A DNA stretch of 29,353 bases from a virus, in the IMG/VR virus record IMGVR_UViG_3300009176_000261, positions 1 through 29,353 of that record. The stretch is one strand, 5' to 3'. The notes beneath the pieces were generated by a model that saw only the letters and a list, made by a program, of their open reading frames with translations, was not told the origin of the DNA and did not search any database. Position 1 is the first letter of the stretch; each line of letters starts with the position of its first letter. Both the position numbers and the translations under genes were made by a program. Positions 1-27,503 of the stretch are shown here, piece by piece.

Positions 1-2
1 CG

Positions 3-3025: not shown

Positions 3026-3357
3026 CTGTCCAGAACGGCTCCCGCTACGAGGAAGCAGAGCACAACTCCACCCTTCGTCACTACTACGACGCTTGGGGCC
3101 ATCCGATGATGGAGGATCAGGACGGGCACATCCGCTACATGCGTACCGCTGTCCAATCGCTCTACATCCTCAACACCCTGCCCGCACCGCTTCCTCCACC
3201 GGCCGAGTACTACGTGAAGCAGGACGAGCACATGCCGCTCATTGCCTTCAAGTTCATGGACGACTCGCTGCGCTGGTGGGAAGTGGCCGAGGTCAACCCG
3301 CAGATCTGGTTCCCGCTGGACATCACCCCTGGTAGCTACATCAGGATTCCCTCATGA
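3022..3357 (+). CDS. LysM-like baseplate/tail protein
   Basis: This is a 111-residue protein, ATGA-coupled at both ends. The C-terminal half (DEHMPLIAFKFMDDSLRWWEVAEVNPQI, interrupted, then PLDITPGSYIRIPS) has the LysM-like pattern seen in phage tail protein X and the LysM parts of baseplate adaptors: a Leu/Ile strand, a tryptophan helix with an Asn-Pro turn, and a final strand ending in Gly-x-x-I-x-I-P. In related tails this protein holds the hub to the tube. Its place between a tube-like protein and a hub-like protein supports this. No catalytic motif is visible. The family call rests on pattern and gene order only. Confidence 0.6.
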   Translation: MTVQNGSRYEEAEHNSTLRHYYDAWGHPMMEDQDGHIRYMRTAVQSLYILNTLPAPLPPPAEYYVKQDEHMPLIAFKFMDDSLRWWEVAEVNPQIWFPLDITPGSYIRIPS

Positions 3358-4529
3358 CGATGACCGATGCCTCCAGCGCTACCACCTATCGCTCGACGCG
3401 AGGCCGGTGCCCAATCTTCCGGCTGCAACTCAAGGGCGAGGACTTCCCGGTCACCGTGTTGAACGGGGCTATCCAGCACGCCTACAACACGCATGACGCA
3501 GCGGTCCTGGGCATGTCGTCCTCCGAACTGACGACGACCGATGGCATCCTCAACTCCCCGATCGCCTTCTACTACGGCCAGGCTCCACGGACTGAGTTGT
3601 TCTGCGGCTACGTCGTCAACATCACCGAGCCGAAGACCGGCAAGGGCAACCTCACCTTCTCTGTGGAGATATTCGGTACCTCCCAGCCGATGCAGATCGG
3701 CCGTCCCCGTTACTGGACCAAGAAGACCGTCCCTTCAGCGGTGGAGAACCTGGCCTACTACAACCGGCTGGGCTTCTACGGGCACGATCACACCTATGCC
3801 TGGCCCTCCTTGGCACAGACCTCCGAGAGCGACTGGTTGATGTCTGTCGGCCTGACCTCTCGACTGGGTTGGGTGGTCAGCCACCGCTTCGGAGTCGTAC
3901 TGTGTTACGACCCGGCCGTCCTGTTCGAAAAGGAGGGCGTGTACGCCTCGTTGGTGTCGTCCGACAACCAGGCTTTCGATCCGACTGCTTCCCGGCGTCT
4001 GATTGAGTTCACTCCCACCGAGGTGTCCGACACCGTCCCACAGAGCCTGGGCACCAAGGTCGCCTACTTCGACGGCCAGGGCAACATCCAGGTGGCGACA
4101 CCGACCGGTGACTACCTCGACTACAAGTTCGCTACCGGGTTCGTCATCGACAATCCAGAAGAGGCGGCGATCTACACGACGAGCCAGGAGTCCAGTCCAT
4201 ACCAGTGGAAGCAGAAGGCCGACGCCAACATATGGGGCGACGTTGACATCTTCCCTGGGATGCTGGTCGATGTGCTCACCATGAATCCTCGCTACCTGCA
4301 GGCCAAGTACGACGGGCGCTGGATGGTTCACACCGTGAACCACATCATGGATGCCCAGCAGTTCCAGACCCAACTCAAGATGGCCCGCCCGAGCAACGAC
4401 GCCCGTATCTCCCAAGGTGCCTATCGCCCCTTTTGGGACCAGGCTGGCAAGGCCAGGCCCACGTTGTCGTTGCAGAACGACTACTGGGTGTCGTCGTGGA
4501 CAGACCTGAGAGTGAGGGATGTGCTGTGA
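3354..4529 (+). CDS. Baseplate hub-like protein (gpD/VgrG/gp27-like)
   Basis: This is a 391-residue beta-rich protein between the LysM-like and gp25-like genes, the usual place of the hub (gp27/gpD/VgrG type). The N-terminal part (FRLQLKGEDFPVTVLNGAIQ) and the phrase FYYGQAPRTELFCGYVVNI fit the first hub domain, in which strands build the ring that continues the tail tube. Near the end, IFPGMLVDVLTMNPRYLQAKYDGRWMVHTVNH resembles the closing hub domain that sets the inner surface. No OB-fold spike, lysozyme or PAAR tip is fused to it. The ATGA start and the GTGA end couple it to its neighbours. Function is inferred mainly from synteny. Confidence 0.6.
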   Translation: MTMTDASSATTYRSTRGRCPIFRLQLKGEDFPVTVLNGAIQHAYNTHDAAVLGMSSSELTTTDGILNSPIAFYYGQAPRTELFCGYVVNITEPKTGKGNLTFSVEIFGTSQPMQIGRPRYWTKKTVPSAVENLAYYNRLGFYGHDHTYAWPSLAQTSESDWLMSVGLTSRLGWVVSHRFGVVLCYDPAVLFEKEGVYASLVSSDNQAFDPTASRRLIEFTPTEVSDTVPQSLGTKVAYFDGQGNIQVATPTGDYLDYKFATGFVIDNPEEAAIYTTSQESSPYQWKQKADANIWGDVDIFPGMLVDVLTMNPRYLQAKYDGRWMVHTVNHIMDAQQFQTQLKMARPSNDARISQGAYRPFWDQAGKARPTLSLQNDYWVSSWTDLRVRDVL

Positions 4530-4972
4530 AAGCGATCCTCTACCCATTCCAGATCGGCCTCGACGGCAAGATCAAGGAGACGACCAACTACGACGAGATC
4601 GTGCGGGGCCAGGTGATCGACGCCGTGATGACCAACCAGGGTGAGCGGGTGATGCGCCCTCGCTACGGCTGTGACGTGCAGGCGTCGCTGTTCGATCCCT
4701 CCGACGAACTGGTCCGCAAGGACGCCGCCTCCATCATCAAGACCCGTCTCTCCAACCTCGTCTCCCGAGCGTTCGTCCGTGAGGTGAGTGTGTCGATCGA
4801 AGATCGCACCACTGCATCGGCCAACGTCTTCACGGGTGGCGGGCAGAGCCTGGTCATCTTTGACATCACCTACCGCTCGACGCTGTACAACACCGATACC
4901 ACCCTTTCGATACCGGTGTCATCGTCCGAGTTCGTGCAGCGTCAGCTAACTCAGGGGACTACCGAACTATGA
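4526..4972 (+). CDS. gpW/gp25-like baseplate wedge protein
   Basis: The product is 148 residues from a GTG that overlaps the previous stop as GTGA. An upstream start in the same frame would run deep into the hub gene, so this one was chosen. The sequence has the gp25/gpW family pattern: a start facing the tail (YPFQIGLDGKIKETTNYDEI), then VMTNQGERVMRPRYGCDVQASLF, where NQGERxMRPxYG is the diagnostic stretch, followed by a long helix (LVRKDAASIIKTRL) and a C-terminal beta sheet. In T4 and related injection systems this protein nucleates the sheath at the baseplate wedge. It is followed directly by a baseplate J gene, its usual partner. The family call is strong. Confidence 0.88.
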   Translation: MKAILYPFQIGLDGKIKETTNYDEIVRGQVIDAVMTNQGERVMRPRYGCDVQASLFDPSDELVRKDAASIIKTRLSNLVSRAFVREVSVSIEDRTTASANVFTGGGQSLVIFDITYRSTLYNTDTTLSIPVSSSEFVQRQLTQGTTEL

Positions 4973-6867
4973 GCGACACCGGAATCCTTGTCACGATCGA
5001 AGACGAGAGTGATACCAGGATCGTTCTCGACTACACCAACCGTGACTTCACGGCGATCCGCTCGCAGTTGGTCGGCCTCGCCAAGGGCCTCATGCCTGAC
5101 TGGGCCACGGCCGGGGAGGCCAGTGACTTTGGCACGCTGCTGATCGAACTGTTCGCCTACATGGGCGATGTCATGCACTTCTACATCGACCGCACTGCCT
5201 CCGAGGCGTTCCTAGGCACAGCAGTGCGACGGCAGTCCGTCCTCTACATCGCTGACATGCTGGGATACCGGCCTATCGGCCAGCAGTCAGCGAGTGTGCT
5301 GCTCGACTTCACGCTCGACGCCAACGCCGAGGAGACTGTCACACTTCCGGTGGGGACGAAGGTCTACAACAACGCCGACAACGCCAACAACTTGATGGTC
5401 TTCGAAACGAACCAGGAGGTCTTCCTCGACCCGTTGGCAACACCACCGATCCTCACTGGCTCGTCCTTCGCCACCGAGGGAGTCACCGTCCACGATGACC
5501 TGATGGGGATCAGCCTGGGCATCCCCAACATCGAGTTCATCCTCCCCCACAAGGGCGTCGTCTTCAACAGCGTGAGCGTGCGCTCCGACGAGGCGGGCCA
5601 GAGCCTGCCGTGGACGTTCGTCTCGGACATCTCCATCGCACGGCCGACCCAGGCGGCTTTCACCACGTTCCTGGACGACACCGGGGTGACTCACGTCGTC
5701 TTCGGTGACAACACGGCCGGTCGAATCCCAGCGGCCAACGCCAACCTCTACGTGACCTACCGCTTCGGCCAGGGGGCCGAGGCCAACGACCTGTCGGCTG
5801 ACACGCTGACGGTCATCGCCGCCAACTCGGTCCCCTCAACCACCAACTTGTGGGGTGTCACCGTCCGCAACGCTGCGTCTCCGGTGGGCGGCACCGATCC
5901 CGAGTCGATCGATGCCATGCGCTTCTCCATCCCCCGGGCGGCGTCACGGATCAAGAGCCGTGCGATCACGCTCAACGACTACGGCGACCTGGCGATGCAG
6001 GTCCCCGGCGTCGCCAAGAGCGTGGCCTACGGCACGGTGTACACCGCTGTCCATGTGCGTATCGCTCCCACAGATGGCAAGGCCACCACCCAGTACATGA
6101 CGTACCTCTGCGACTCGGTAGAGGCCTACATGGCCGACAAGATCATCGTCGGCTCACAGGTCATGGCCGAGCCGACCGATGTCAACGCTCTCTGGTACCC
6201 CGTCTACTGCCGGGTTCTGGTCCATGTCATCGAAGGGTTCAACCGCTCGTCGGTGCGGCTCCAGGTGGAGTCGTTGATCCGCAAGGCGGTGGACTTCGAC
6301 TTCGTGGACTTCGGCACCAAGATCACCATCGGCAAGATCTACCGCACGTCGCTGTCGATCCAGGGCGTCGAGTGGATCGAGATCATGTGGCTGAACAACA
6401 CCGAGCCGACCCTGGCCCAGGACAAGCTGATGGCTCCGATCACCAACAACGCCGACCCCAGCCCGATCACGGTGAACGACATGATGACGCCGCCCCTGTT
6501 GATCCCACGCATCGTGCCGCCGCTGACAGTGTTCAAGAAGGCCGACGTGCAGACCAAGCAACTCACGTCGTGGGTCGCCAAGCTGACCACCACGGCCGCT
6601 CATACCTTCCTGGTCGGGGAGGGCATCACGGTGGCCGGGGTCGATGGAACCTTCAACGGCAACTACATCATCACCGCCGTCACCTCCAACACGATCAGCT
6701 ACGCCAAGCAGGTCGCTGACATCGCTGCCGTGGCGGCGACCGGCACGGTCACCCAGTACGACACCCACAACCCCGAGTCCGAGGTGGACTTCCCCGGCCT
6801 GGACGAGAACGAGCGCACTCACGACGGCCTGTGGGTGTGGGCTGTCGGTGGAGTCGTCGGGTCGTAG
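4969..6867 (+). CDS. Baseplate J-like protein (gp6-like wedge)
   Basis: The product is 632 residues, ATGA-coupled to the gp25-like gene. Hallmarks of the J family are visible: LDYTNRDFTAIRSQLVGLAK and LLIELFAYMGDVMHFYIDRTASEAFLGTA near the N terminus, then ARRAA-like text replaced by IPRAASRIKSRAITLNDYGDLAMQVPGVAKS, in which the Arg-rich strand and the 'DYG' loop are typical. The family forms the wedge ring around the hub and opens when the tail triggers. Residues 440-510 include the final wedge strands; the last 100 residues form an extra beta domain (TTAAHTFLVGEGITVAGV) of a kind often added for fibre attachment. The gene is complete and in the expected place. The family call is strong; the role of the C-terminal extension is unknown. 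Confidence 0.88.
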   Translation: MSDTGILVTIEDESDTRIVLDYTNRDFTAIRSQLVGLAKGLMPDWATAGEASDFGTLLIELFAYMGDVMHFYIDRTASEAFLGTAVRRQSVLYIADMLGYRPIGQQSASVLLDFTLDANAEETVTLPVGTKVYNNADNANNLMVFETNQEVFLDPLATPPILTGSSFATEGVTVHDDLMGISLGIPNIEFILPHKGVVFNSVSVRSDEAGQSLPWTFVSDISIARPTQAAFTTFLDDTGVTHVVFGDNTAGRIPAANANLYVTYRFGQGAEANDLSADTLTVIAANSVPSTTNLWGVTVRNAASPVGGTDPESIDAMRFSIPRAASRIKSRAITLNDYGDLAMQVPGVAKSVAYGTVYTAVHVRIAPTDGKATTQYMTYLCDSVEAYMADKIIVGSQVMAEPTDVNALWYPVYCRVLVHVIEGFNRSSVRLQVESLIRKAVDFDFVDFGTKITIGKIYRTSLSIQGVEWIEIMWLNNTEPTLAQDKLMAPITNNADPSPITVNDMMTPPLLIPRIVPPLTVFKKADVQTKQLTSWVAKLTTTAAHTFLVGEGITVAGVDGTFNGNYIITAVTSNTISYAKQVADIAAVAATGTVTQYDTHNPESEVDFPGLDENERTHDGLWVWAVGGVVGS

Positions 6868-6869
6868 CC

Positions 6870-8510
6870 ATGACTGATTCCTGGTGGCCGCTCGGGTACA
6901 GGGACCCGGCCTTCGTCGTACAGCGGCAGGTCTACGGCTTCGAAAACGGCGGTGACTACGTCCGTGGCACGTCGGTCACGACCCTTCCTCATACCGCCCT
7001 TCGATACGCGTCTACGACCCCTGGGTTCACTGACGCGACGAAGAAGGCATACCTCACTATCAGGTGGTGGGGCCATGAGGTGGTGCGTACGGAGATGACC
7101 CCCGGCGTCTTCCAGGTCAAGGAGACTGGTGTCTCCGAGATCAACTGGGGCTGGCCCAACGAGATCGATCCGTCGTGGTCTGAGGTGGCACTGGTCCGCT
7201 CGGGCTTCGGCTTCCCGCTGACCCCAGCGGACGGCCAGACCGTGTTCCGTGCCCTGCACTCGGACTTCACCAATCTCAACGACGATGACGACGTGCCACC
7301 TGTCGTCTACGACCGGCCGCTGCAGCCGGGGCAGTTCTACTACTACACCTTGTTCTTCAAGACGACGCCGTTCGACTGGATCACCGGCATGCAGGCGCTG
7401 GTGTTGATCCCCCACAAGTACGGCTTCGACCAGCACATGTGGGACGCCATCCCTCCTTACTACCAGCGTGTGGACTCCAACCTGCGGGAGGGCGAGGGGC
7501 CGCTCCGTCAGATGCTGCGGGTCTTCGGGGCCGAACTCGACTCCACCCGTGAGTACGTGGAGCAGTGGCAGGAGACGTATCACATCGACAAGTGCCCGCT
7601 GCCGCTGTTGAAGCAGGTCGGGGCCAACTTCGGCGTGCCTTACAAGGCCGGTGTCGGTGACATCCGATACCGGGCAATGCTCGCTGGCCTGCCCGAGATG
7701 CTGGCGATGCGAGGCACCATCACGGCGATGCGCCAGGTCGTGACGACCGGCACCAAGTACGGCGTGGACATCACCCTCGGTGAGAACATCATGCTTCTGA
7801 CCGACGACTCGATCTTCACCGCTGGCACCGGCAACTGGGGTTCGATGCACCCAGGGACCGGCGTCGCTGGCTGGACGGCCATCTCTTCCGACAAGGTGAC
7901 CTTGACCAACACCGGCAACAACCCGCCCAGCCCGATGGGCCTCAACTCAATGCGGATCGTCACCGATGACTCGGTGGAGACGACCAACCTCTCCATCACT
8001 TGCGGCTGTACGAACGGCACCAAGGGCAACGTCGGTGAGGTCTACCCACTGACCGCTGGCATCCCGGTCAGGCCTGGCTCTCAGTACGCCTTCAGCTTCA
8101 AGATGTACCAGGAGCTTGGGTTGAGCACCACCGTGGCCCTGCTCTGGTTCAACGCCGGGGGCAAGCCCAGCGACCTGATCAGTACCTCGCAGGCGACGGC
8201 CTTCGTGGGCACGGCCGGTGCCTGGCAGACCTTTCTGTTTCAGGCCGTGGCTCCACCCACCTCGGTCTACGTGACCCCGGCTCTCTACTTCACCAGCCGG
8301 GTCACCTCACCGGTCGTCGGCCGTTCCGGGTTCATCGACATCGCTGGCGTGATGGTCTACGTCGTGGACGACGTGTCGGCTCCCAAGCAGTACATCGCTC
8401 CCGACAAGTATCTCACCCTGGGTGCCGCCGCCGAGTTCATCGGCCCGGTGATCACGGGTCAGGAAGCCACCACCGGGTTCATCCTCGGAGATCCGTACTA
8501 CGTACCATGA
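6870..8510 (+). CDS. Tail protein I-like baseplate protein with FN3-like and carbohydrate-binding-like domains
   Basis: The ATG at 6870 lies 2 nt after the J stop; earlier starts in frame overlap J and were rejected. Residues 58-166 look like an FN3-type beta sandwich (EVALVRSGFGFP, DRPLQPGQFYYYTLFF). Residues 185-300 carry the P2 gpI-like segment (YYQRVDSNLREGEGPLRQML, then PEMLAMRGTITAMRQVVTTGTKYGV), which in other phages joins the wedge ring to the fibre. Residues 310-515 resemble a jelly-roll carbohydrate-binding module (GNWGS...GWTAIS, then SQYAFSFKMYQELG). The product is a likely adaptor between baseplate and receptor-binding protein. It is ATGA-coupled to the next gene. The gpI-like part is well supported; the others are fold guesses from pattern. 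Confidence 0.7.
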   Translation: MTDSWWPLGYRDPAFVVQRQVYGFENGGDYVRGTSVTTLPHTALRYASTTPGFTDATKKAYLTIRWWGHEVVRTEMTPGVFQVKETGVSEINWGWPNEIDPSWSEVALVRSGFGFPLTPADGQTVFRALHSDFTNLNDDDDVPPVVYDRPLQPGQFYYYTLFFKTTPFDWITGMQALVLIPHKYGFDQHMWDAIPPYYQRVDSNLREGEGPLRQMLRVFGAELDSTREYVEQWQETYHIDKCPLPLLKQVGANFGVPYKAGVGDIRYRAMLAGLPEMLAMRGTITAMRQVVTTGTKYGVDITLGENIMLLTDDSIFTAGTGNWGSMHPGTGVAGWTAISSDKVTLTNTGNNPPSPMGLNSMRIVTDDSVETTNLSITCGCTNGTKGNVGEVYPLTAGIPVRPGSQYAFSFKMYQELGLSTTVALLWFNAGGKPSDLISTSQATAFVGTAGAWQTFLFQAVAPPTSVYVTPALYFTSRVTSPVVGRSGFIDIAGVMVYVVDDVSAPKQYIAPDKYLTLGAAAEFIGPVITGQEATTGFILGDPYYVP

Positions 8511-10513
8511 GCGCCTTCTTCCCCGACTTCATCCGCACGCAGTTGGCGACCACTCCGACACTCTTCGTCGGCAAGACGCTCAAGGTCGTACTGCTGCGCC
8601 AGGCCCCTTCGTTCAACAGCGAGGACAGCCGCTACCAGGAGATCAGCACCCTGCCCGAACTGCTCGCCAAGCCTGGCTGGGCTGAGGTGTCTGGCACCAC
8701 CGGCTACCCGCTGGCAAGCACCATCCCGGCCAACATGTACAAGCCGGTGGGCTTCACCAACAACTACTTCCGAGCCGACCTCTACACCTTCGGCACCCTG
8801 GCCGACACCGAGGTCGCTGGCTTCGCCTTCCTGCTGGTCGGCACCTACGGCGGCAAGGTCGATCCGATCGTGATGGTGACGACGAGTCCGTTCGATGTTG
8901 GACCGCAGATTCTGAGGGCCACCGATGGGATAACGGCTAACCCGGATATCGGACTACCGGTGCCACCGCCACCATCGAATAACCGCTGGCTATTCTCTTG
9001 GGCCGACGCTGCAGGCGGTGCGACCCAGGTGACATCGATGGTCGAGGGGCCGCTGTCGGTGTACCAGGGAGCGCCGCCGTTCGAAGTCAGTCACACTCAG
9101 CACGTCTGGCTCTACCCGCAGCGGGTCAACATGATCGCCAACCCCAGCTTCGAATCGGCGTCTGTCAACACTGGCTACTGGTCAACCAACGGGTCGGCCA
9201 GCCGGGTTGCCATCCCCAACGCCGCCCTGGTCGGCCCGACCGGCAGCCCTGCTGGTGCCTGGTCCGGTCGGTTCCAGAAGGCGGGCACGGTGATCGCTGA
9301 GTCCAACTGGTTCCCCACCCAACGGGAAGAGGACTGGACGATCCAGTTGCATGCCAAGGGCACCGGCAAGCTCAAGGTCGGCTTCGTCGCTTGGAACGAC
9401 GAGTTCAACGTGCTCGGCACGGACTGGGGCACACAAACGTGGACGCTCAACGCCAGTTCGTTCATCCATATCTCAACGTGTCGCACCGTTGCCCAGGCAT
9501 ACCAGGCTTTGATCCGTCTGGAGTGTGACGGCGGCGATCTCACGATCGATCAGGTGCTGTGCGAGAAGGGCCTGCTCCCGGACTGGGACTACTTCGACGG
9601 TGACTCGACCTACGGCGCTCGGGACGACTACATGTGGTACGGCGGTGAGGTCCGCAAGGGTGGCACCTACTCCCTGTGGTATAACAACAAGCGCACCATC
9701 TACGGGCGCATGTTCGGCCGTGAAGTTGACAGTACGGCACTGATCACCGACGACGTGATCGCTGAACGAGGCTTCATTTACAAGTGGGTACCTGCGGGAA
9801 CGTTCATCAACGCCCATCTCGGCGTGCTCTACCCCAACGACCCGATGGCACCGGTCCCGGCCAAGGTCGCTGGCGTGATCGCCTACCGCTCAGGTGTCTC
9901 CGACACCGCAGGGGTGGTCAACCCCTGGGTGGTGGATCAGTATCTCATCCCGGCTCTCGGCACCATCTCTACACCCGACACGCCTGACATGGCGATCACC
10001 GGGATGGTGCGGCTGTCATTCCGGGCGAGATTCGATGCGATCCTGGGTACCGGGTTCCCGTCAGTCGTGATTAAGCAGACCGCCGCCCCGGTACGGGAAT
10101 ATCTCGTCTTCTTGTATCACCCCAACACTGACCTCATGGTCTTCTCGTCGGCAGATCCGGCGCTGACGAGTTTCACCCAGGCCACGATGCTCGCATCGAC
10201 ACCGCTCGGGGTTGCCCACACCTTTGGTGTCGAGGTCGCTCCCAACGCAACGTCCATCGTGTCCATCCTCGATGGGGTTCGTACTACTCAACCAGCGGGG
10301 CAGCTTGTTCTGCCACACACCGCTGCTCCCGTCATGATCGGCGGCGGTGATCCCAACCTGCAAGGGCGCATCTACTGGGCGCAGCTGGAGAAGCTCGACG
10401 GCACCGTCATCTGGCGGTTCGACGCCACTGAGTATCCGGGCACGGGGACGAGCTACACCGATCCACGGGGCCGGGTCTGGACGCTGTCCAACGCCAACGC
10501 CATCGGGCACTGA
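8507..10513 (+). CDS. Receptor-binding/minor tail protein with carbohydrate-binding-like and LamG-like domains
   Basis: This 668-residue protein is the last of the tail operon. Residues 1-135 probably attach it to the baseplate. A Pro-rich linker (VPPPPSNN, about 150-160) follows. Residues 208-355 resemble a CBM4/9-type jelly roll, with MIANPSFESASVNTGYW as the usual opening and QVLCEKG close to its end. The region YFDGDSTYGARDDYMWYGGEVRKGG is the standard 'tail' that follows such modules in actinophage minor tail proteins. Residues 475-650 resemble a concanavalin/LamG sandwich (MVRLSFRARFD, MIGGGDPNLQGRIYWAQL). It likely recognises cell-surface sugars. Codon choice changes near 8890-9000, at the domain border. 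No enzyme motif was seen. Confidence 0.68.
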   Translation: MSAFFPDFIRTQLATTPTLFVGKTLKVVLLRQAPSFNSEDSRYQEISTLPELLAKPGWAEVSGTTGYPLASTIPANMYKPVGFTNNYFRADLYTFGTLADTEVAGFAFLLVGTYGGKVDPIVMVTTSPFDVGPQILRATDGITANPDIGLPVPPPPSNNRWLFSWADAAGGATQVTSMVEGPLSVYQGAPPFEVSHTQHVWLYPQRVNMIANPSFESASVNTGYWSTNGSASRVAIPNAALVGPTGSPAGAWSGRFQKAGTVIAESNWFPTQREEDWTIQLHAKGTGKLKVGFVAWNDEFNVLGTDWGTQTWTLNASSFIHISTCRTVAQAYQALIRLECDGGDLTIDQVLCEKGLLPDWDYFDGDSTYGARDDYMWYGGEVRKGGTYSLWYNNKRTIYGRMFGREVDSTALITDDVIAERGFIYKWVPAGTFINAHLGVLYPNDPMAPVPAKVAGVIAYRSGVSDTAGVVNPWVVDQYLIPALGTISTPDTPDMAITGMVRLSFRARFDAILGTGFPSVVIKQTAAPVREYLVFLYHPNTDLMVFSSADPALTSFTQATMLASTPLGVAHTFGVEVAPNATSIVSILDGVRTTQPAGQLVLPHTAAPVMIGGGDPNLQGRIYWAQLEKLDGTVIWRFDATEYPGTGTSYTDPRGRVWTLSNANAIGH

Positions 10514-10540
10514 GATACTTGGTAGTAGCGTGCTCCCCCC

Positions 10541-10807
10541 ATGGAGCACCTTCTCGTAGCATTCGCCGTGTGGGGCCTGTGGACAGCCCTGATGGAGATG
10601 GTGGAGGCCTCGGCCTGGTTCTGGCGGCTCCTGCCCTTCGTGTTGGGGGTCGGGGGCCAGTGCCTGATCGACTACCATCACTGGTGGCTTGGACTCGGCC
10701 TGGGTGGAGCAGCGATGATCCTGATGCGAATCAGCGATTTGTTGCTGGTAACTACGGACTGGGTTAGGGTCCTCGTCCTGCGACAGCAACGAGCGACCAG
10801 ACAATAG
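10541..10807 (+). CDS. Two-helix membrane protein (holin-like candidate)
   Basis: This 88-residue protein has two hydrophobic segments, about residues 4-38 (rich in Trp, Leu, Ala and Val) and 48-70 (WLGLGLGGAAMILMRISDLL), and a basic C-terminal tail with several Arg. This is the layout of many small phage holins, but the family is too diverse for a motif test. It sits between the last tail gene and an acidic protein. No clear ribosome binding site precedes the ATG. A TAGCGT box lies 9 nt before it (10526-10531), so near-leaderless expression is possible. A holin, a membrane accessory or a superinfection protein would all fit. Confidence 0.55.
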   Translation: MEHLLVAFAVWGLWTALMEMVEASAWFWRLLPFVLGVGGQCLIDYHHWWLGLGLGGAAMILMRISDLLLVTTDWVRVLVLRQQRATRQ

Positions 10808-10817
10808 GAGAAACGCC

Positions 10818-11699
10818 ATGTACATCGTGCTCGGTGACGGGGAGATGACCCGCAAGGAGTTGACCGAGACACTCCAGGAGTTGATGGACAACACGGGGGA
10901 CCAGCCGTACTGGTTCGTCGTCCAGGGCAAGGACGACCCCTCTGACACCGACAAGGCCATCGTCAACTGGCTGGACAAGAACGGGGTCTACTACGAGGTG
11001 CTGACCGACGACGCCGATGCGATGGCCGACATCTACGGCAACGCTCAGGAGACGCACGTCGCCAAGCGCATCGCTCAGAAGGTCGTCAATCTGCTCAACA
11101 CCAAGCCCGAGGAAGGCGAGACGACGGCGCAGATCCTGGCGCTCTACGTCTCGGACGACCCCGCTGCCGAAGAGGATCGCTGGCTCAACGGTGTGATCCA
11201 GGCCGCAGCCGACGCCGGATTCCCGGCTTTCGTGCTCAACGACGGCATGGTGGAGGTTGACTTCTCTGATCCAGAGGCCGAAGGGGCCGAAGCGGACGAA
11301 ATAGAGGAAGAAGAGGACGTGCCACCCACCAAGCCCACCAAGGCCGCTGCCAAGAAGGTTGCCGCCAGCCCGAACGGGGCCAAGCCCAAGGTCAAGACGT
11401 ACACCCGGGAAGACCTGGAAGAACTCTCCCTGACCGAACTCAAGGAGATCGCCACGGCTCAAGGGATCGAACTGCCGCCGCGCACCCGCATCCCCACCTA
11501 CATCGATCACATCCTGGGCGAGGCCAAGGGTGAGGCACCGGCTGCCGAGATCGATACCCCCCCTATCACGACGACCACTTCGGGCAGCAACACCACAGCC
11601 ACCATCACCAGCATCAACGGCGTCAGCGCCGAGAGCCTGGCCGAAGCCGCTGCGGGCATCGTGATGCGGAAGATCGTTGAGGCTCTCCAGGGGGTGTGA
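10818..11699 (+). CDS. Acidic protein with a Rho_N/SAP-like domain, function unknown
   Basis: This is a 293-residue protein with a strong ribosome binding site (AGGAGAAAC, 3 nt before the ATG). The first 150 residues contain mixed helices and strands and no known motif. An acidic stretch (EAEGAEADEIEEEEDV, 153-168) is followed by a Lys/Ala-rich linker. Residues 196-235 (YTREDLEELSLTELKEIATA, then PRTRIPTYIDHILGE) match the Rho N-terminal/SAP-like helix-extended-loop-helix fold, which in other proteins binds nucleic acid. The C terminus has a Thr/Ser-rich linker and a final helix. It is the last gene before the hairpin at 11718-11751. The ribosome binding site suggests high expression. A DNA- or RNA-associated role is only inferred. 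Confidence 0.6.
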   Translation: MYIVLGDGEMTRKELTETLQELMDNTGDQPYWFVVQGKDDPSDTDKAIVNWLDKNGVYYEVLTDDADAMADIYGNAQETHVAKRIAQKVVNLLNTKPEEGETTAQILALYVSDDPAAEEDRWLNGVIQAAADAGFPAFVLNDGMVEVDFSDPEAEGAEADEIEEEEDVPPTKPTKAAAKKVAASPNGAKPKVKTYTREDLEELSLTELKEIATAQGIELPPRTRIPTYIDHILGEAKGEAPAAEIDTPPITTTTSGSNTTATITSINGVSAESLAEAAAGIVMRKIVEALQGV

Positions 11700-11717
11700 C
11701 CATCCCTCCCTGGTAGT

Positions 11718-11751
11718 GAGATATCCCCTGCGGGCGGGCAGGGGATATCTC
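11718..11751 (+). terminator. Perfect 14-bp inverted repeat after the structural operon
   Basis: GAGATATCCCCTGC (11718-11731) and its exact reverse complement (11738-11751) flank a 6-nt loop GGGCGG. It starts 18 nt after the stop of the acidic-protein gene and lies before the next promoter, the expected place for a terminator. There is no U tract, so it may instead be an RNA-processing or protein-binding site. Hairpin terminators without U tracts are reported in actinobacteria. Confidence 0.65.
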
Positions 11752-11761
11752 AACACAGGGG

Positions 11762-11797
11762 TTGCATCCGTGTCAAAGATTCTGTATCTTTGACAAC
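11762..11797 (+). promoter_or_regulatory. Leaderless promoter overlapped by a 10-bp dyad operator
   Basis: TATCTT at 11785-11790 fits the actinobacterial TANNNT -10 box and lies exactly 7 nt before the ATG at 11798, so transcription would start at or next to the start codon. TTGCAT (11762-11767) is a weak -35 at a 17-nt spacing. A perfect dyad covers the -10: TGTCAAAGAT (11771-11780), 5-nt spacer, ATCTTTGACA (11786-11795). A repressor bound here would block polymerase. No ribosome binding site exists upstream of the ATG, in agreement with leaderless expression. The right arm also contains TTGACA, but no -10 lies at a proper distance from it. Confidence 0.6.
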
Positions 11798-12937
11798 ATG
11801 AGCTTCGACAACCCCGACCCGTTCAACCCGAACCTCACCGACGAGCAGTCGGAGGTTTTTCTCTCGCTCCGCTATGTGGACGGTAAGACGCTGGCTCTGC
11901 TGGCGCTCGCCAGCGGATGGACTCCGACTCACGTCGGTGGCGGGGTGGGAGGCATGCTGTTCATCGCTGATGATGGCACGCGCTTCTCGGTGCCGATTGT
12001 CGAGAGCGATCAGAGCGTCAAGAGCCTGAGGTCGAACGTCCGCAAGGTGTTGAGACACCGGAAGCCGAACGGCCCACCCCCTCTCGTCATCGTGGAGAGG
12101 GTGATCGACTACTTGAAGATGGACGCCTCCCGCGCCACCACGCTTCGCATCCTCGCCTCCGAGGCCGGTGCTCCGACCGTGGCAGGGTCCCCAGTGGAGC
12201 CGGTTCCTGATGACGGCGGATCATCGGAACCGGCCCCAGTGGTGACCCCGCCTGGGCGTCATCGTAAGCGACGTATCACTCGCGAAGAGCCTTGGAGCGC
12301 ACATCGCAACCAAAGTGGCGTGACATACCCGTCCGACGCTGTGATGGAGCGCACCTGGAACGACGGCACGACGGACTTCGCCTGCCGCTGGGAGGGTTGT
12401 GACTTCACCGACGACAACGCTCGCACGGTGGCTGCTCACAACGGCGCTCACAAGCGCGGCCAGGGCAAGTCGCCCCAGCCCGAAGTGGATGGCTTCGATC
12501 CCAACCACGTCCCCGGCACCAGCCGCACCCGTCGCATCTTCAAGTTGCGCCGTGAGGTTGACGGTGCGCTGACGGCAGCGCTCGCCCAGGGGATCGACTT
12601 CTCCGTGGTCGATCAGGCCGAGTGGATCGCCACCTGGATCATCGACCACCGCGTCGAGCCAGTGAAGGGCAGCGGCGACGAGGCCGACGAGGTTGAGTTG
12701 ACCCCGGAGCAGATCCTGGACCGGATCGCAGCCCTGGCCGACCGTGGTCGTGGCAAGATCCTGCGGGAGCAGGTTGATAGCACTCAGGCCCTGGCCGAGG
12801 ACTATCTGGAGCAGTTGACAGAGGCTCAGGCCCAGCGTGACGCCGCTCTTGCTAAGGCCTCCCGAGTTGAGGGTAACCTGAGCGCCCTAAGAGACATGTT
12901 CAACGAAACGTTGGCAGACCCGGAGGTAACACAGTGA
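11798..12937 (+). CDS. C2H2 zinc-finger protein, function unknown
   Basis: The product has 379 residues from the ATG at 11798, chosen because the -10 box is 7 nt upstream; the in-frame TTG at 11762 lies inside the promoter. A single C2H2 finger is at residues 196-218: C196, C201, H214, H218 (C-x4-C-x12-H-x3-H). Before it is a basic patch (GRHRKRRITR, 153-162). Residues 260-300 look helical, and 325-370 form a likely coiled coil (AEDYLEQLTEAQAQRDAALA). The finger and the basic patch suggest binding to nucleic acid. As the first gene of the long operon and behind an operator, it could be the regulator of that operon; this is a guess. GTGA overlap with the next gene. Confidence 0.6.
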   Translation: MSFDNPDPFNPNLTDEQSEVFLSLRYVDGKTLALLALASGWTPTHVGGGVGGMLFIADDGTRFSVPIVESDQSVKSLRSNVRKVLRHRKPNGPPPLVIVERVIDYLKMDASRATTLRILASEAGAPTVAGSPVEPVPDDGGSSEPAPVVTPPGRHRKRRITREEPWSAHRNQSGVTYPSDAVMERTWNDGTTDFACRWEGCDFTDDNARTVAAHNGAHKRGQGKSPQPEVDGFDPNHVPGTSRTRRIFKLRREVDGALTAALAQGIDFSVVDQAEWIATWIIDHRVEPVKGSGDEADEVELTPEQILDRIAALADRGRGKILREQVDSTQALAEDYLEQLTEAQAQRDAALAKASRVEGNLSALRDMFNETLADPEVTQ

Positions 12938-17107: not shown

Positions 17108-17133
17108 AGAGGCCCCCGAGAGAGGGGGCCTCT
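17108..17133 (+). terminator. GC hairpin terminator after the small-gene operon
   Basis: AGAGGCCCCC (17108-17117) pairs exactly with GGGGGCCTCT (17124-17133) around a GAGAGA loop. It follows the last gene of the operon by 22 nt, and no open frame crosses it. A short stem CCTGG/CCAGG (17089-17105) lies just before it. The downstream sequence is TCCGCG, without a U tract. Confidence 0.75.
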
Positions 17134-17173: not shown

Positions 17174-17206
17174 GAAGAGGCCAGGCGTCACGCACCTGGC
17201 CTCTTC
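17174..17206 (+). promoter_or_regulatory. Perfect 12-bp inverted repeat in the leader of the initiator gene
   Basis: GAAGAGGCCAGG (17174-17185) and CCTGGCCTCTTC (17195-17206) are exact reverse complements around a 9-nt loop. It lies 28 nt before the ATG and 14 nt before the ribosome binding site AGGAGAGG (17221-17228). It could be an attenuator, an operator or a second terminator. It shares the sequence AGAGGCC...GGCCTCTTC with the preceding terminator. Confidence 0.55.
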
Positions 17207-17234: not shown

Positions 17235-18194
17235 ATGAAGTATACAGGGGGGCTACGGCTCAGGCGAGAGCACCGGCTGGTGCTGGAGCAGATGGAGTGG
17301 CCTGCCGATCGCATCAGCCGACCAGCATGGCGTGGCGTCATGGAACTGCTGTTCGTGCTCGCCAGCCACTACCCCCGAGCCTGTCCAGGGATCGACACGA
17401 TCGCCTACGAGGCCGGTGGAGTATCACATCGAACGGTCCAGTACTGGATCGCCAACGCTCAGAAACTAGGGCTGCTGGAGGTGCTTCCAGACCAAGGGAT
17501 CAAGAGCCGATGGGGTTCGTCCAAGACGAATCTCTACGTGATACCGGCCTTAGACAAGGTGAGCCGTGGCGCAATACTGACCTCACGCCGTGGCGCAAGC
17601 GTTGCGCCTCGCCGTGGCGCAAGCGTTGCGTCACGCCGTGGCGCAATGCTTGCACCCAAAGGAAGAAGTACTACGTACTCCTTACCAACAAAGGACCCTT
17701 CGGGTCGGAAGACTTCGTCTTCCTCCCCTACGGAACGTGCGACCTCCGGTCGCACTACCGTCTCGGCCATGAACCGAGAGCCAGGGGAGACAGACGCAGA
17801 GTTCCGACAGCGGATCGCTGCGGCGGCGGGAGCCAAGCGACTCGCGGTTCGGCCGCGGCAGAGTGAGCGCAGCCCAGCCCAACGAACCGCGTCACACTTC
17901 GCCACCGGCTGGGTCACCATGGTCGAAGAGAACCCCGAGTTCCGTGACATCCGCCCGTGGGAGTCGAAGGGGATGACCACCGGGTATCTCAACAGCGTGT
18001 TCTTCTACCCGGAGGCCGGTCGGGTCTACGAGGAAGACGAGGTGCGTGCGTTCATCGAAGACTTCATCGAAGCGGTGCGTACCTCACGGGTGCAGGTCAA
18101 GGCAGGGCAGTCGGCGTTCATGCGCTTCACCGGCTGGTGGGGTCGCTCCGACTGGTCGTCGGTGAAGGAGGACGAGCGCCCGTTCATGGGCTGA
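17235..18194 (+). CDS. Winged-helix replication initiator-like protein
   Basis: This is a 319-residue protein with ribosome binding site AGGAGAGG. Residues 28-85 form a helix-turn-helix/winged-helix domain (RPAWRGVMELLFVLASHY, IDTIAYEAGGVSHRTVQYWI, AQKLGLLEVL) of the kind found in phage replication initiators. Residues 110-180 are low-complexity, rich in Arg, Ser, Gly and Thr, and are encoded by the repeat array at 17563-17755. The C-terminal part (190-319) is helical, with Trp-rich motifs (FATGWVTMVEENPEFRDIRP, FMRFTGWWGRSDW) resembling the DnaD-like end that contacts a helicase loader. A DnaC-like ATPase, a DnaB-like helicase and a primase follow, in agreement with an initiator role. A transcription regulator is the alternative. 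Confidence 0.65.
   Translation: MKYTGGLRLRREHRLVLEQMEWPADRISRPAWRGVMELLFVLASHYPRACPGIDTIAYEAGGVSHRTVQYWIANAQKLGLLEVLPDQGIKSRWGSSKTNLYVIPALDKVSRGAILTSRRGASVAPRRGASVASRRGAMLAPKGRSTTYSLPTKDPSGRKTSSSSPTERATSGRTTVSAMNREPGETDAEFRQRIAAAAGAKRLAVRPRQSERSPAQRTASHFATGWVTMVEENPEFRDIRPWESKGMTTGYLNSVFFYPEAGRVYEEDEVRAFIEDFIEAVRTSRVQVKAGQSAFMRFTGWWGRSDWSSVKEDERPFMG
17563..17658 (+). repeat. Four 24-bp direct repeats (iteron-like), probable origin core
   Basis: GCCGTGGCGCAA starts at 17563, 17587, 17611 and 17635, an exact 24-bp period. In unit 2, GGCGCAA (17592-17598) and TTGCGCC (17602-17608) form a perfect dyad around GCG; unit 3 has the same dyad with one change, and unit 4 another with one change (TTGCACC). 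Unit 1 lacks the right arm. The units encode the repeated peptide RRGASVA- in the linker of the initiator. Iterons inside the initiator gene are the arrangement of phage lambda O and related origins. Confidence 0.75.
17667..17755 (+). repeat. Cluster of four inverted repeats with 3-nt loops
   Basis: Directly after the iterons come AGTAC-TAC-GTACT (17667-17679), GACCC-TTC-GGGTC (17694-17706), GGAAGAC-TTC-GTCTTCC (17707-17723) and GTGCGACC-TCC-GGTCGCAC (17737-17755). All arms are perfect and every centre has three bases, as in the iteron dyads. The coded protein is a low-complexity linker here, so DNA or RNA structure may be what is selected. The region could be the unwinding or priming part of an origin. 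Confidence 0.65.
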
Positions 18195-18243: not shown

Positions 18244-18262
18244 CGGCATCCCACCGAGTTCA

Positions 18263-18335
18263 CCCCCCAGGGCCAGCGAACAGTTGCAACATGGTCCTGG
18301 GTTACCCCTGGGGGGGCCTCTCGTTGGACAAGTGA
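18263..18335 (+). promoter_or_regulatory. Structured leader with mutually exclusive hairpins and a 14-codon leader ORF
   Basis: The segment CCCCCCAGGGCCA (18263-18275) can pair in two ways. CCCAGGGCCA (18266-18275) pairs with TGGTCCTGGG (18292-18301), 10 bp with one G-U; or CCCCCCAGGG (18263-18272) pairs exactly with CCCTGGGGGG (18306-18315). The two stems share bases and cannot exist together, as in attenuators and riboswitches. An ORF from ATG 18291 to TGA 18335 (MVLGYPWGGLSLDK) overlaps the second stem, but lacks a clear ribosome binding site. The DnaC-like start is 15 nt further on. Confidence 0.5.
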
Positions 18336-18350
18336 AACGAGGTAGAACCA

Positions 18351-18944
18351 GTGGGAACGTTGACCGTGCCGCCTCCTGGCACGTACCAGGAGCTAGCCGC
18401 CGAGAACCAGACAGCCATCCAGGAGTGGCTGGTCTATCTGAAAGCACAGCACGACGCTGACGGCATGCGGGGCGATCGTGCGGTCGGATTCTGGTCGCAT
18501 GGCCCACGCCGCAGCGGCACGACGTATCTTGCGTCGGTGGCTGTGAAGCGTGCGGTACGGGAGAAGGATCGTGACCTGTACGGCACGATCGATTGGGAGT
18601 ACACGACGTTCGCAGAGGCCGTCGAGCTAGTCCGCACGGGCTGGGACGAGACGGCCCGACTCAACCCCAACGACGAGGGGGCCTGGCAGGATGCGATGCG
18701 CGTCGAGCGCATCGCTGACCGGTTGTGGAAAGAGTGCGATCTGGTTTGGGTGGACGATGTCCACCCCGGAGTATCGAGCATGGAGTTCTTCGGGCGTCAC
18801 ATATTTCCGAAGTTGGAGTACCGCGTCAAGATGGGCAAGGCGACTGTTGTGTCAACGTCGTTCTCTGCCAAGCAGTTGGGGATTCTTGAACCAGTTGTAC
18901 GCGACCTCTTCGTGATGTGTGAACCCCGGCGTGCAGAACGGTGA
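18351..18944 (+). CDS. DnaC/IstB-like helicase loader ATPase with a degenerate Walker A
   Basis: This 197-residue protein starts at a GTG with GAGGT upstream. The P-loop region is GFWSHGPRRSGTTYLA (46-61): the pattern of G-x4-G-[KT]-T is kept, but the expected Lys is Thr. Walker B is CDLVWVDDVHPG (129-140) with the two Asp kept, and a sensor-1-like segment is KATVVSTSFSAKQL near 165-180. Position directly before HAD-like and DnaB-like genes and after an initiator suggests a helicase loader, similar to DnaC of other actinophages. It may bind ATP poorly or not at all. The AAA+ fold call is good; the loader role is inferred from context. Confidence 0.65.
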   Translation: MGTLTVPPPGTYQELAAENQTAIQEWLVYLKAQHDADGMRGDRAVGFWSHGPRRSGTTYLASVAVKRAVREKDRDLYGTIDWEYTTFAEAVELVRTGWDETARLNPNDEGAWQDAMRVERIADRLWKECDLVWVDDVHPGVSSMEFFGRHIFPKLEYRVKMGKATVVSTSFSAKQLGILEPVVRDLFVMCEPRRAER

Positions 18945-19353
18945 CCTGGAAGCCAGCTTCCCGGAGCGGCTCATCATCGTCCTGGAGGGTGTACTAGCCC
19001 TCGTCGTCCAGGAACGCCAACACACCGGCCGGTTCCGTCGCACTGACACCATCACGTATCACATCATGTGGCACGAAGTGCCGATCAAACGCTTCATCGT
19101 GACCAAAGAGCGCTATCCCCACTACGAGTTGGAGATCGTCACGTTCTTGGGCGAGTCGCTCGCTGACCAGGCTGCCCAGTACCTGCAACGGATGAACGTG
19201 CCATACGACAGTATCAACTACGAGTCCATCGATGACTTCGTGATGATGCTGCCGTACCAGCGCAACGTCAGGGCCGTGTACGACTCAGACCCGGAGAACC
19301 TGCACCGCTTCGGCCAGGTCGGAGTCGCCGTGGTCAGAGGCGAGGACTGGTAG
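18919..19353 (+). CDS. HAD-like protein with a degenerate nucleophile motif (tentative)
   Basis: This is a 144-residue protein whose GTG start at 18919 overlaps the DnaC-like gene by 26 bp; a GTG at 18931 in frame is an alternative. The segment RLIIVLEGVLALVV (about 18-31) has the shape of HAD motif I (hhhDxDGVL), but the nucleophile Asp is Val and the second Asp is Glu. The segment VRAVYDSDPENLHRFGQVGV and the end VRGEDW resemble the last part of HAD proteins. If the fold is right, it is probably not an active phosphatase. It is translated together with replication genes. An unrelated Rossmann-like protein is possible. Confidence 0.4.
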   Translation: MNPGVQNGDLEASFPERLIIVLEGVLALVVQERQHTGRFRRTDTITYHIMWHEVPIKRFIVTKERYPHYELEIVTFLGESLADQAAQYLQRMNVPYDSINYESIDDFVMMLPYQRNVRAVYDSDPENLHRFGQVGVAVVRGEDW

Positions 19354-19356
19354 GCC

Positions 19357-20661
19357 ATGGCGAACTGGCAGCACGCCTTCCTGTCCAGCATCGTCCTGGA
19401 CGAGTCGATCAAGGAAGCCGTTGACGCCGGTATCACCACGGAGTTCTTCCGTGACCCTGGTTTCGCCAGCGTCTACGAGTACATGCTCAAACACTGGTCG
19501 AAGTACGCCACCGCTCCCGACGAGCACGTCGTCCACGGTGCCTTCCCCACCATCACCTGGACCAAGCAGACTCAGCCGCTGACGTATCTCATCGATCAGA
19601 TGCGGCACGACCGCAAGTTGGTCATCCTCATGAACGGCCTCAAAGAGGCGTCCGAGTACGTTCACGACGAGGATGCCGACGAGATGCAGGGCGTGCTGCA
19701 GCGTGCCCTGACCACGGCCCGCATCGAAACGTCGGAGTCCTATGACGAGGACTTCACCGCCCAACGTGCGGCCATCGAAGAGATGCTGCTCACCCGCATG
19801 GATGACCCCGGTCGCCTGCGTGGTATCTCCACCGGCTTCTCCGGGATCGACTACGTGACCGGTGGGTTCCAGCCCGAGCAGTACGTCGTCCTGATGGGCA
19901 CACCGAAGAGCTTCAAGTCGGCCACGCTGCTGGCGATGGCCCGTGCTGTCCACCAGCAGGCCAAGACACCGCTGTTCATCGGCTACGAGATGTCGAACGT
20001 GGAGCAGACCGACCGCCTGCTCTCGCTCATCTCCGGTGTCGGCCTGACGAAGATCATGAACGGCACCCTCAACCAGAAGGAGTACCGCGCTGTCCAGCTT
20101 GCGCTGTCACAGATGGAGGGCATGTTCCCCTTCGTGTTCTCAACTGATATCACAGCAGCTACGACTGTGGGGGGCGTACAGGCCAAGGTCCAGAACTATC
20201 AACCGGACGTGGTCTTCGTGGATGGCGCTTATCTCATGCAGTCGGAGTTGGACAAGGTAGAGCCAGGCTCGGCCCAGGCCGCGACCTCCATCAGCCGCTC
20301 GTTGAAGCGCATGGCCCAGGCGCAGAAGATCCCCGTCGTCGTCACCACTCAGGCCTCCCTCTCACGTTCGAAGGGGGGCCTCACTCTTGGCTCGGCCATG
20401 TACACCCAGGCCTGGGGCCAGGACTGTGACGTGATGCTCGGCGTGGAGCGCGTGATCGAAGACAACAAGGACCCCGACGACGACACCGGCATCGTCCTGG
20501 TGAAGTTCAAGGTGGTCGAGTCACGGTCAGGCCCACGCAAGGAGACGTTGCTGGAGTGGGACTGGTCGAAGGGGAGTGTGCGAGAGATCGACCCGGCCAA
20601 GGTCAAGGCGTCGATCGAACGGTCTAAGCGGGGTTACAGCTATGAGGACGAGGATGACTAG
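19357..20661 (+). CDS. DnaB-like replicative helicase
   Basis: The 434 residues have the two-part build of DnaB. The N-terminal helical domain (1-125) begins QHAFLSSIVLDE. The RecA-like domain starts about residue 155 with GISTGFSGIDYVTGGFQPEQ. Walker A is GTPKSFKSA (181-189); the usual Gly before Lys is Phe. GYEMS (209-213) contains the catalytic Glu, and Walker B is VVFVDGAYL (285-293). VVTTQAS is motif H3, and the Arg-rich region KVVESRSGPRKETLLEWDW follows. It is slightly short compared with bacterial DnaB, as is usual for phages. The gene lies between a loader-like gene and a primase gene. The helicase should unwind DNA at the fork as a ring. Confidence 0.85.
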   Translation: MANWQHAFLSSIVLDESIKEAVDAGITTEFFRDPGFASVYEYMLKHWSKYATAPDEHVVHGAFPTITWTKQTQPLTYLIDQMRHDRKLVILMNGLKEASEYVHDEDADEMQGVLQRALTTARIETSESYDEDFTAQRAAIEEMLLTRMDDPGRLRGISTGFSGIDYVTGGFQPEQYVVLMGTPKSFKSATLLAMARAVHQQAKTPLFIGYEMSNVEQTDRLLSLISGVGLTKIMNGTLNQKEYRAVQLALSQMEGMFPFVFSTDITAATTVGGVQAKVQNYQPDVVFVDGAYLMQSELDKVEPGSAQAATSISRSLKRMAQAQKIPVVVTTQASLSRSKGGLTLGSAMYTQAWGQDCDVMLGVERVIEDNKDPDDDTGIVLVKFKVVESRSGPRKETLLEWDWSKGSVREIDPAKVKASIERSKRGYSYEDEDD

Positions 20662-20670
20662 GGGGCTTGC

Positions 20671-21621
20671 ATGTTAAGCAACAGCATGTTCAGCCTGCGT
20701 TCCATCTTGGAGAGCGCAGGGGTGATACCGGTACGGGAGCCGGACAAGAAGATCTACGCGCCCTGTCCACAACATGAGAAGCGGACGGGGAAGCAAGACC
20801 GACACCCGTCGTGGTCGATCAACAAGAAGACCTTCGTCCATCTCTGCTTCTCCTGCCGCTACAGCGGCTCGCTCACCACACTCCTGTTCGACCTGCTCGG
20901 GACCGTCCCCGACGATCTCGACAAGGCGATGCTCAAAGAGTTCTTCGTCCAGCGGAGCTTGGAGACTCGCGAGCACCCCGAGGAACATGTCGAGCCGGTC
21001 CTGTCCGACCGGCCACCGCTCACCGAGTGGAGCCTCCGCAACATCCTCCGTGACGTACCGCAGCGCCTGCTCAACCTGCGCCGGTTGATGCGGCCAGCGG
21101 TCGATCACTACGAGGTTCGCTGGGATGGTGATGCCAAGCAGTGGGTGATGCCACTGCGCTCCGCGACGACGGGTGACCTGCTCGGAGCGCAGTACCGTCA
21201 GAAGGGCCTCGTCCTCACCCTTCCTGAGGGCGTGCCCAAGGCCACCACACTGTTCGGCTTCAAGCAGTGCTGCGAGTTCAACTACTGCGCCATCGTGGAG
21301 TCACCACTCGACGCCGTACGGCTGGTCGGTATCGGTGTACCAGCGGTGTCATCGCTCGGAGCCTTCGTCTCCCATGAGCAGGTGCGCCTGCTTGCTACCA
21401 ACTTCACACGGGTGTACCTTGCCCTGGACAACGACAAGGCGGGCAACAGCGCGTGCGAAGTGCTCGGCCCGATGTTGAGGAAGGCAGGCACCGCACCGAT
21501 GCGTTGGAACTACACCGGCCTGGTGGACGACGAAGGCGAACCGGCCAAGGACCCTGGCGACGTGGACACCGACGAGGCGCTGGCCGACTCCTGGTCACGC
21601 ACGTTGCGGATGGGCTTGTGA
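20671..21621 (+). CDS. DNA primase (CHC2 zinc finger and TOPRIM)
   Basis: The product has 316 residues from ATG 20671, with GGGGG upstream; an ATG at 20686 is an alternative. The N-terminal zinc-binding domain has C32, H35, C59 and C62 (CPQH and CFSC), as in DnaG-type primases. The TOPRIM part shows IVESPLDAV (catalytic E210) and YLALDNDKAGNSA (D253, D255). It makes short RNA primers for the fork and should work with the DnaB-like helicase encoded just upstream. It lacks the C-terminal helicase-binding domain of bacterial DnaG, so it is short; phage primases often are. GTGA overlap with the next gene. Confidence 0.85.
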   Translation: MLSNSMFSLRSILESAGVIPVREPDKKIYAPCPQHEKRTGKQDRHPSWSINKKTFVHLCFSCRYSGSLTTLLFDLLGTVPDDLDKAMLKEFFVQRSLETREHPEEHVEPVLSDRPPLTEWSLRNILRDVPQRLLNLRRLMRPAVDHYEVRWDGDAKQWVMPLRSATTGDLLGAQYRQKGLVLTLPEGVPKATTLFGFKQCCEFNYCAIVESPLDAVRLVGIGVPAVSSLGAFVSHEQVRLLATNFTRVYLALDNDKAGNSACEVLGPMLRKAGTAPMRWNYTGLVDDEGEPAKDPGDVDTDEALADSWSRTLRMGL

Positions 21622-26750: not shown

Positions 26751-27503
26751 ATGAGTCCCACGAAGCGACCCGCTCGTCGCGTCCCACGCCAAGGTGACGC
26801 CGAGCCGACCACCCCGCCGCCAGCCGCCACGAATGGCGACGGCGACGAAGACGAAGACGACGACCCACCGCCGCGTCCGAAGAAGAAGGCATCGTCCGGT
26901 CCCGAGACAGCCCTGCGTGGTGGCTACACCGCGGCGCAGCAGATCATGGACTCCACGTCTGACTTCGCTCAGACGTTGAAGCTGGAAGAGAAGGCGGTCT
27001 TCATCAAGTTCCTGGAAGACGTGCCCTACGTCTCGTTCCGTCGTCACTGGATCGAACGCTCGTCCAAGGACGGCAAGAGCCTGCGTGCCTGGACATGCCT
27101 CAAGTCCGTCAACAAGGAGTGCCCGCTCTGCGAGATCGGTGACCGCCCGCAGGCCGTCGCCGCCTACAACGTGGCGCTGCTCGGTGACGAGGGCCAGGTG
27201 CTGCTCAAGTCCTGGGACCTCGGCCCCCGCCTGTTCAATGTCATCAAGGGCTACAACAACGACCCGAAGATCGGGCCGCTGACCCGTGGCTTCTTCATGG
27301 TCAGCAAGACCGGCAAGAAGGGCACCGTCCAGCACAACGTGTCGGTGGTGTCGAAGACGGCGTTGGAAGAGGACTACGACATGGAGGTCCCCGACCAGGC
27401 GGCACTCGACCGCTTGGAGCGCTACGGTCCTGACGTGGTGACCATTCCGAAGACCAAGGAACTGGAAGAGATCGCGTCCGAGTTGGACGACGACTACGAG
27501 TAG
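26751..27503 (+). CDS. ssDNA-binding-like protein
   Basis: The product has 250 residues with GAGGA before the ATG. A disordered N terminus (1-55), basic then acidic (NGDGDEDEDDDPPPRPKKK), precedes a beta-rich core (83-215) with aromatic positions (VPYVSFRRHWIER) and the metal-site candidate C116, C124, C127 (ECPLC). The C terminus is acidic (KELEEIASELDDDYE), as in ssDNA-binding proteins that recruit partners by that tail. The similarity to T4 gp32-type phage SSBs is in layout (core with Cys cluster, acidic tail). The gene is right before the DNA polymerase. I infer SSB; no decisive motif exists. Confidence 0.6.
   Translation: MSPTKRPARRVPRQGDAEPTTPPPAATNGDGDEDEDDDPPPRPKKKASSGPETALRGGYTAAQQIMDSTSDFAQTLKLEEKAVFIKFLEDVPYVSFRRHWIERSSKDGKSLRAWTCLKSVNKECPLCEIGDRPQAVAAYNVALLGDEGQVLLKSWDLGPRLFNVIKGYNNDPKIGPLTRGFFMVSKTGKKGTVQHNVSVVSKTALEEDYDMEVPDQAALDRLERYGPDVVTIPKTKELEEIASELDDDYE

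Follow-up and report, generated by a model that had tools for sequence, protein, structure and literature searches.

The window analyzed here, a 29,353-nucleotide stretch of viral DNA (IMG/VR record IMGVR_UViG_3300009176_000261), carries a replication module in which an O-like initiator gene is followed by genes for a probable helicase loader, a small product, a DnaB-like replicative helicase, and a DnaG-like primase (Table 1). The AlphaFold2 model of the initiator, for which the protein and 21 relatives served as input, has a mean pLDDT of 79.5 and consists of a winged-helix domain (residues ~4 to 119), a disordered linker (~121 to 180; pLDDT ~44), and a helical C-terminal domain (~187 to 312). 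The first-pass annotation had placed two sets of repeats in the linker of a winged-helix initiator-like gene, ahead of loader, helicase, and primase genes; the family matches (weak for the loader) and the model agree with this arrangement, with the trailing repeats lying within the disordered linker and the iterons at its edge. The nearest relatives of the initiator, those of L002 and L005, are 37 to 41% identical to it, and a gene 32% identical to the loader occupies the same place in L002. No initiator relative was found by tblastn among cultured phages or plasmids or in a GTDB-based genome scan, and a Foldseek search with the initiator model returned generic wHTH folds only, none at an E value of ≤0.001. 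The small gene between loader and helicase has no family match (weakly phrog_7207, E 0.067); small genes matching it are present in L002 and L005, and its product is a candidate replication factor.

Table 1. Replication genes and repeat elements of the initiator locus, in positions of the window
Feature	Position	Strand	Evidence
Initiator gene, 319 aa	17235..18194	+	phrog_391 O-like, E 3.6e-6
Probable helicase loader, DnaC-like AAA+, GPRRSGTT and DLVWVDD motifs	18351..18944	+	phrog_50, E 0.0064 (weak)
Small gene between loader and helicase	18919..19353	+	Matching small genes in L002 and L005
DnaB-like replicative helicase	19357..20661	+	Pfam DnaB_C, E 8.1e-26
DnaG-like primase (Toprim)	20671..21621	+	Pfam Toprim_2, E 5.4e-10; phrog_47, E 5.1e-22
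Iteron array, four 24-bp units, core GCCGTGGCGCAA	17563..17658	none	7-bp dyad perfect in unit 2, with 6 of 7 pairs in units 3 and 4; dyadic iterons at matching place in many relatives
Hairpin 1, AGTAC-TAC-GTACT	17667..17679	-	Complementary-strand loop c(GTA)g
Hairpin 2, GACCC-TTC-GGGTC	17694..17706	-	Complementary-strand loop c(GAA)g
Hairpin 3, GGAAGAC-TTC-GTCTTCC	17707..17723	-	Complementary-strand loop c(GAA)g
Hairpin 4, GTGCGACC-TCC-GGTCGCAC	17737..17755	-	Complementary-strand loop c(GGA)g

The 12-bp cores of the iterons are exact at 17563, 17587, 17611, and 17635, the starts and 24-bp period given by the first-pass annotation, and this array is the top-scoring tandem repeat in the whole window (score 114). 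The 7-bp dyads around a 3-nt center that had been ascribed to all four copies are present in copies 2 to 4, copy 2 being perfect as read from the sequence (GGCGCAA-GCG-TTGCGCC, 17592 to 17608), whereas copy 1 has none (3/7); the peptide repeated across the array is RRGASVA. The four additional perfect inverted repeats with 3-nt centers, likewise noticed before, code for residues ~145 to 174. Their centers are TAC, TTC, TTC, and TCC in the coding strand, each closed by a C-G pair; read from the opposite strand, they are C-GTA-G, C-GAA-G, C-GAA-G, and C-GGA-G. All four thus belong to d(cGNAg), an unusually stable type of DNA minihairpin in which the loop contains a sheared G:A pair. Judged from the window by itself, four dyads with 3-nt loops within 100 bp are only mildly unusual (Markov sequences reach 4 in 1 of 60), and four dyads of the C-TNC-G class are beyond chance (null maximum of 1 across 60 Markov sequences). 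The hairpins occupy a shallow dip in GC content, with an 80-bp minimum of 0.53 at 17640 versus 0.62 for the window; GC skew gives no clear origin signal.

A helicase profile yielded 80 viral loci, and an iterated initiator profile recovered the initiator in 59 of the loci gathered. In a first set of 28 initiators mutually less than 70% identical, we counted coding-strand C(TNC/TNNC)G hairpins with stems of at least 5 bp against a null in which codons were permuted with the protein unchanged and codon usage fixed (300 permutations; 200 for the held-out set described below). There are 56 such hairpins versus 2.60 ± 1.66 expected (maximum of 9 in 300), distributed over 26 of the 28 initiators, whereas the mirror class C(GNA/GNNA)G is not enriched (4 versus 2.0 expected), and in the other 335 kb of these loci the two strand classes are equally frequent, at 28 each. 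Unbiased ranking of loop and closing-pair types places C(TTC)G (18 versus 0.45), C(TAC)G (14 versus 0.18), C(TCC)G (8 versus 0.63), and C(TGC)G (6 versus 0.27) at the top, with a single occurrence of G(TNC)C. Stems are up to 12 bp long; two of the longest (L020 and L022) lie at the start of the open frame, terminator-like and outside the array. For a held-out test, a second search and a genome search supplied 18 more initiators, all below 70% identity to the first set; they gave 19 hairpins versus 1.27 ± 1.14 expected (maximum of 5 in 200) and 1 of the mirror class versus 1.16. Over both sets the orientation is 75 to 5. Two of the 28 initiators and 7 of the 18 have no hairpin of the class (11 of the 18 have at least one), so the module is common but not universal. 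Hairpin number does not correlate with GC content (rho 0.23, P 0.23). Two relatives with contigs of 116 and 118 kb contain no cluster of this class apart from the array, which lies at 56 kb on the 118-kb contig and at 112.8 kb on a contig of 115.7 kb.

Whether the repeats are kept where the peptide is not was the check proposed with the first-pass annotation, and L002 and L005 speak to it directly: both lack the repeated peptide and have dyads at the same place, with hairpin loops TTAC, TAC, TTC, and TGC in the former and TTCC, TTC, and TTC in the latter. This is the opposite of peptide repeats kept without dyads and thus supports an iteron-type origin. On the complementary strand, the four-base loops TTAC and TTCC become GTAA and GGAA and belong to d(cGNNAg), another stable DNA tetraloop class. 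The four-base loop CAAG (CTTG on the complementary strand) also occurs in initiators, three times versus 0.27 expected (L012 at 4189, L013 at 4386, and L026 at initiator nucleotide ~480), and CTTG on the coding strand does not occur. One member of the held-out set comes from a 735-kb actinomycete scaffold, Nonomuraea typhae NZ_VRLV01000004.1 (114537 to 127742; L117), where a related initiator-loader-helicase-primase module, likely a prophage, carries a hairpin with a 10-bp stem, ATCTAGAGAC-TTC-GTCTCTAGAT. This contig hints at the host group, the hosts of these GC-rich phages probably being actinobacterial, and may offer a culturable model.

The stem sequences diverge among relatives, and their paired positions covary. 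In a group of 16 relatives (L038 group), an 8-bp stem is paired in every sequence; double changes occur in 5 of the 8 pairs and are 100% paired, and sliding the partner by 1 to 3 columns reduces this to 0 to 1. Of 10 cases in which a stem continues past a mismatch, 4 have A.C in the coding strand, equivalent to T.G in the complementary strand, and none has G.T; the numbers are small, but the asymmetry is the one that folding of the complementary strand would predict. DNA energies from ViennaRNA are almost equal for the two strands and do not separate them, so the stability of the bottom strand rests on published loop chemistry. Wherever relatives have both elements, iterons are 5' and hairpins 3'. 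Iteron arms are specific to each phage, and iteron loops include AAT, ATT, CAC, and TCA; the trailing arms have no sequence in common among phages or within one array, and their loop class and strand are fixed. A frequent layout is X'-TNC-X-Y-TNC-Y'-X', in which two mutually exclusive hairpins use one common arm (L013, L014, L015, L018, L019, and L023), and the row often ends in a long GC-rich hairpin with a different loop. In the comparison, the one-strand GNA-hairpin array recurs more widely among the phages than any one iteron does, and its retention in dozens of distantly related phages despite sequence differences points to a widespread origin design.

The locus shares with lambda O/ori-lambda and the P22 gene 18 origin dyadic iterons in the linker-coding DNA of a winged-helix initiator, with loader and replicative helicase genes directly downstream, although the lambda and P22 initiators are only remotely similar to that of the window. 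The suggestion that the layout equals that of lambda is nevertheless not supported: in the same scan neither the lambda nor the P22 origin has C-TNC-G hairpins beside its iterons, AT-rich DNA being found there in lambda, whereas the window has a separate hairpin module. The earlier proposal of an origin in the initiator gene is therefore supported by the comparison for the iterons in the linker and amended for the trailing repeats, which form a module of their own. The more distant BRock-type Streptomyces phages have a helicase 30% identical to that of the window, a related primase, and an initiator homologue in the C-terminal part only, but no hairpin array in the whole BRock genome; the module is thus not essential to this helicase set and goes with the winged-helix/iteron part of the initiator. 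Clusters of the hairpin class are likewise missing from the other cultured phages with a related helicase or primase (MS1, Cantare, LE2-3, GMA6, and Dorin) and from phi11 and TP901-1.

The closest matches to the hairpins come from two other systems. Scanned in the same way, bases 1 to 12,000 of phage N4 give exactly three matches, all in one orientation and immediately upstream of gp1, gp2, and the RNA polymerase gene gp15; from their position we take these to be the three early promoters. The N4 vRNAP early promoters and the hairpins of the arrays have in common a 5- to 7-bp stem, a GNA triloop, a C-G closing pair, and placement on the template strand for rightward synthesis. They differ in that N4 has one hairpin per site, in noncoding DNA and read by the giant vRNAP, whereas up to several stand in a row here, in a coding gene. 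In N4, sub-physiological supercoiling suffices to extrude the small hairpins; SSB melts the hairpin of the non-template strand and leaves that of the template strand intact, and a sheared G:A pair holds the loop together (PMC4496689). Streptomyces telomeres contain serial hairpins with GNA or CTTG loops, the diverging stems of which show compensatory change (PMC7205883), and the helix-turn-helix protein Tap binds GCA-looped single-strand hairpins and, together with Tpg, starts DNA synthesis there (PMC4513846). Our scan of a Streptomyces linear plasmid end recovered the row of CAAG-loop hairpins (CTTG on the other strand) as published (PMC7205883). The telomeres resemble the present arrays in loop type, including CTTG on the complementary strand in L012, L013, and L026, but they are replicon ends with a terminal protein, whereas the arrays lie beside iterons in a coding gene, internal on contigs that may not end where the genomes do.

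From these comparisons, positions 17563 to 17755 are probably a replication origin inside the initiator gene, the trailing repeats probably act as DNA hairpins, and with moderate confidence we favor a theta-type origin of two modules. In the first, the phage-specific dyadic iterons would be bound by the winged-helix domain of the initiator; in the second, the downstream inverted repeats, with TNC or TNNC loops closed by C-G, would provide cGNAg or cGNNAg minihairpins on the complementary strand. Iteron-bound initiator together with negative supercoiling would melt the linker DNA, upon which the complementary strand could snap into sheared-G:A hairpins resistant to SSB while SSB opens the coding strand. 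The hairpins would then stop re-annealing and keep the coding strand accessible to DnaB, which would enter with help from the loader; they would also designate the complementary strand as the template on which the first leading-strand primer, pointing rightward, is made. That this strand folds and serves as template is argued by analogy, since the hairpin strand is the template in both N4 and Streptomyces telomeres. As to how the hairpin strand is used, we tentatively suggest a class of dsDNA phage origin in which the array might choose the strand and be an internal, telomere- or N4-promoter-like single-stranded start, read by the phage primase or initiator and taking the place of the AT-rich melting region of lambda-type origins in these GC-rich phages.

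Alternatively, the hairpins could be N4-like promoters or primer starts in their own right, with a hairpin-reading RNA polymerase or primase starting RNA rightward just beyond the template-strand GNA hairpin, as a transcript or a leading-strand primer. Loop, closing pair, stem length, and orientation match the three N4 scan matches, and the nearly uniform orientation over both initiator sets would fit; we nonetheless regard this as unlikely. Neither gp50 of N4 nor its polymerase domain has a tblastn match at an E value of ≤1 in the window or in the two 116- to 118-kb relatives (G001 and G002), contigs that may be incomplete, and the PF00940 profile found no match, its control being equally silent; the single hairpin per N4 promoter also contrasts with the rows seen here. 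With no N4-type RNA polymerase found, any protein that reads the hairpins would more probably be the initiator, loader, or primase, and the phage primase could fill that role under the promoter reading as well.

It is improbable that the locus is a plain lambda-like iteron origin whose trailing dyads are extra double-stranded protein-binding sites or decayed iterons. The iterons do adjoin the trailing dyads, and the initiators hold an excess of dyads overall (145 versus 82 expected), but the iterons carry other loops, and the trailing stems covary and keep one loop class and one strand while their arms have no common sequence. Structures in the initiator mRNA or in an antisense RNA, regulating initiator or loader expression, might explain covarying stems within a coding region, yet they are very improbable: the coding strand accepts A.C but not G.U within the stems, the four-base loops GTCA, GGCA, and GACA depart from the GNRA pattern that an antisense RNA would need, and an Rfam search gave no match. 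To our knowledge, moreover, the UNC loops with a C-G closing pair that the coding strand would form belong to no known stable RNA class. A coding or compositional artifact, in which peptide repeats such as RRGASVA and GC-rich codons create chance dyads, would suit the mildly unusual dyad cluster of the window alone but is ruled out by the codon-permutation and strand controls, since the null with amino acids and codon usage fixed is exceeded ~20-fold on a single strand, a result repeated in the held-out phages.

The two-module origin that we favor would extend initiator-gene origins by a conserved module of strand-specific DNA hairpins, and one loop chemistry would link lambda-like iteron origins, N4 hairpin promoters, and Streptomyces telomeres. 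A literature search of incomplete coverage found no description of such an array in phage initiators, and the one-strand hairpin design is apparently undescribed. It allows one to test directly whether strand choice and the first priming event at a theta origin are set by single-stranded DNA hairpins, and the loop and closing-pair pattern gives a simple sequence rule for locating origins in uncultured phage genomes.

Several other elements were observed around the module. The gene at 26751 to 27503 matches phrog_14578 (E 4.2e-5), and its product, probably a phage single-strand DNA-binding protein, is relevant if SSB acts at the hairpins. Between the initiator and loader genes lies a structured element (18245 to 18330 in the window, 5895 to 5950 in L005, and ~3488 to 3545 in L002) with the conserved sequence CCCCCCAGGGCCA...TGGTCCTGGG(G)TAACCC(C)TGGGGGG that folds in each of the three phages as a long stem with interruptions; it may be an mRNA leader or a second origin element. 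A GAAGAGGCC...GGCCTCTTC hairpin, probably a terminator, recurs immediately before the initiator gene in several of these phages, at 17108 to 17133 and 17174 to 17206 in the window, ~4890 to 4925 in L005, ~2489 to 2520 in L002, and ~4255 in L020.
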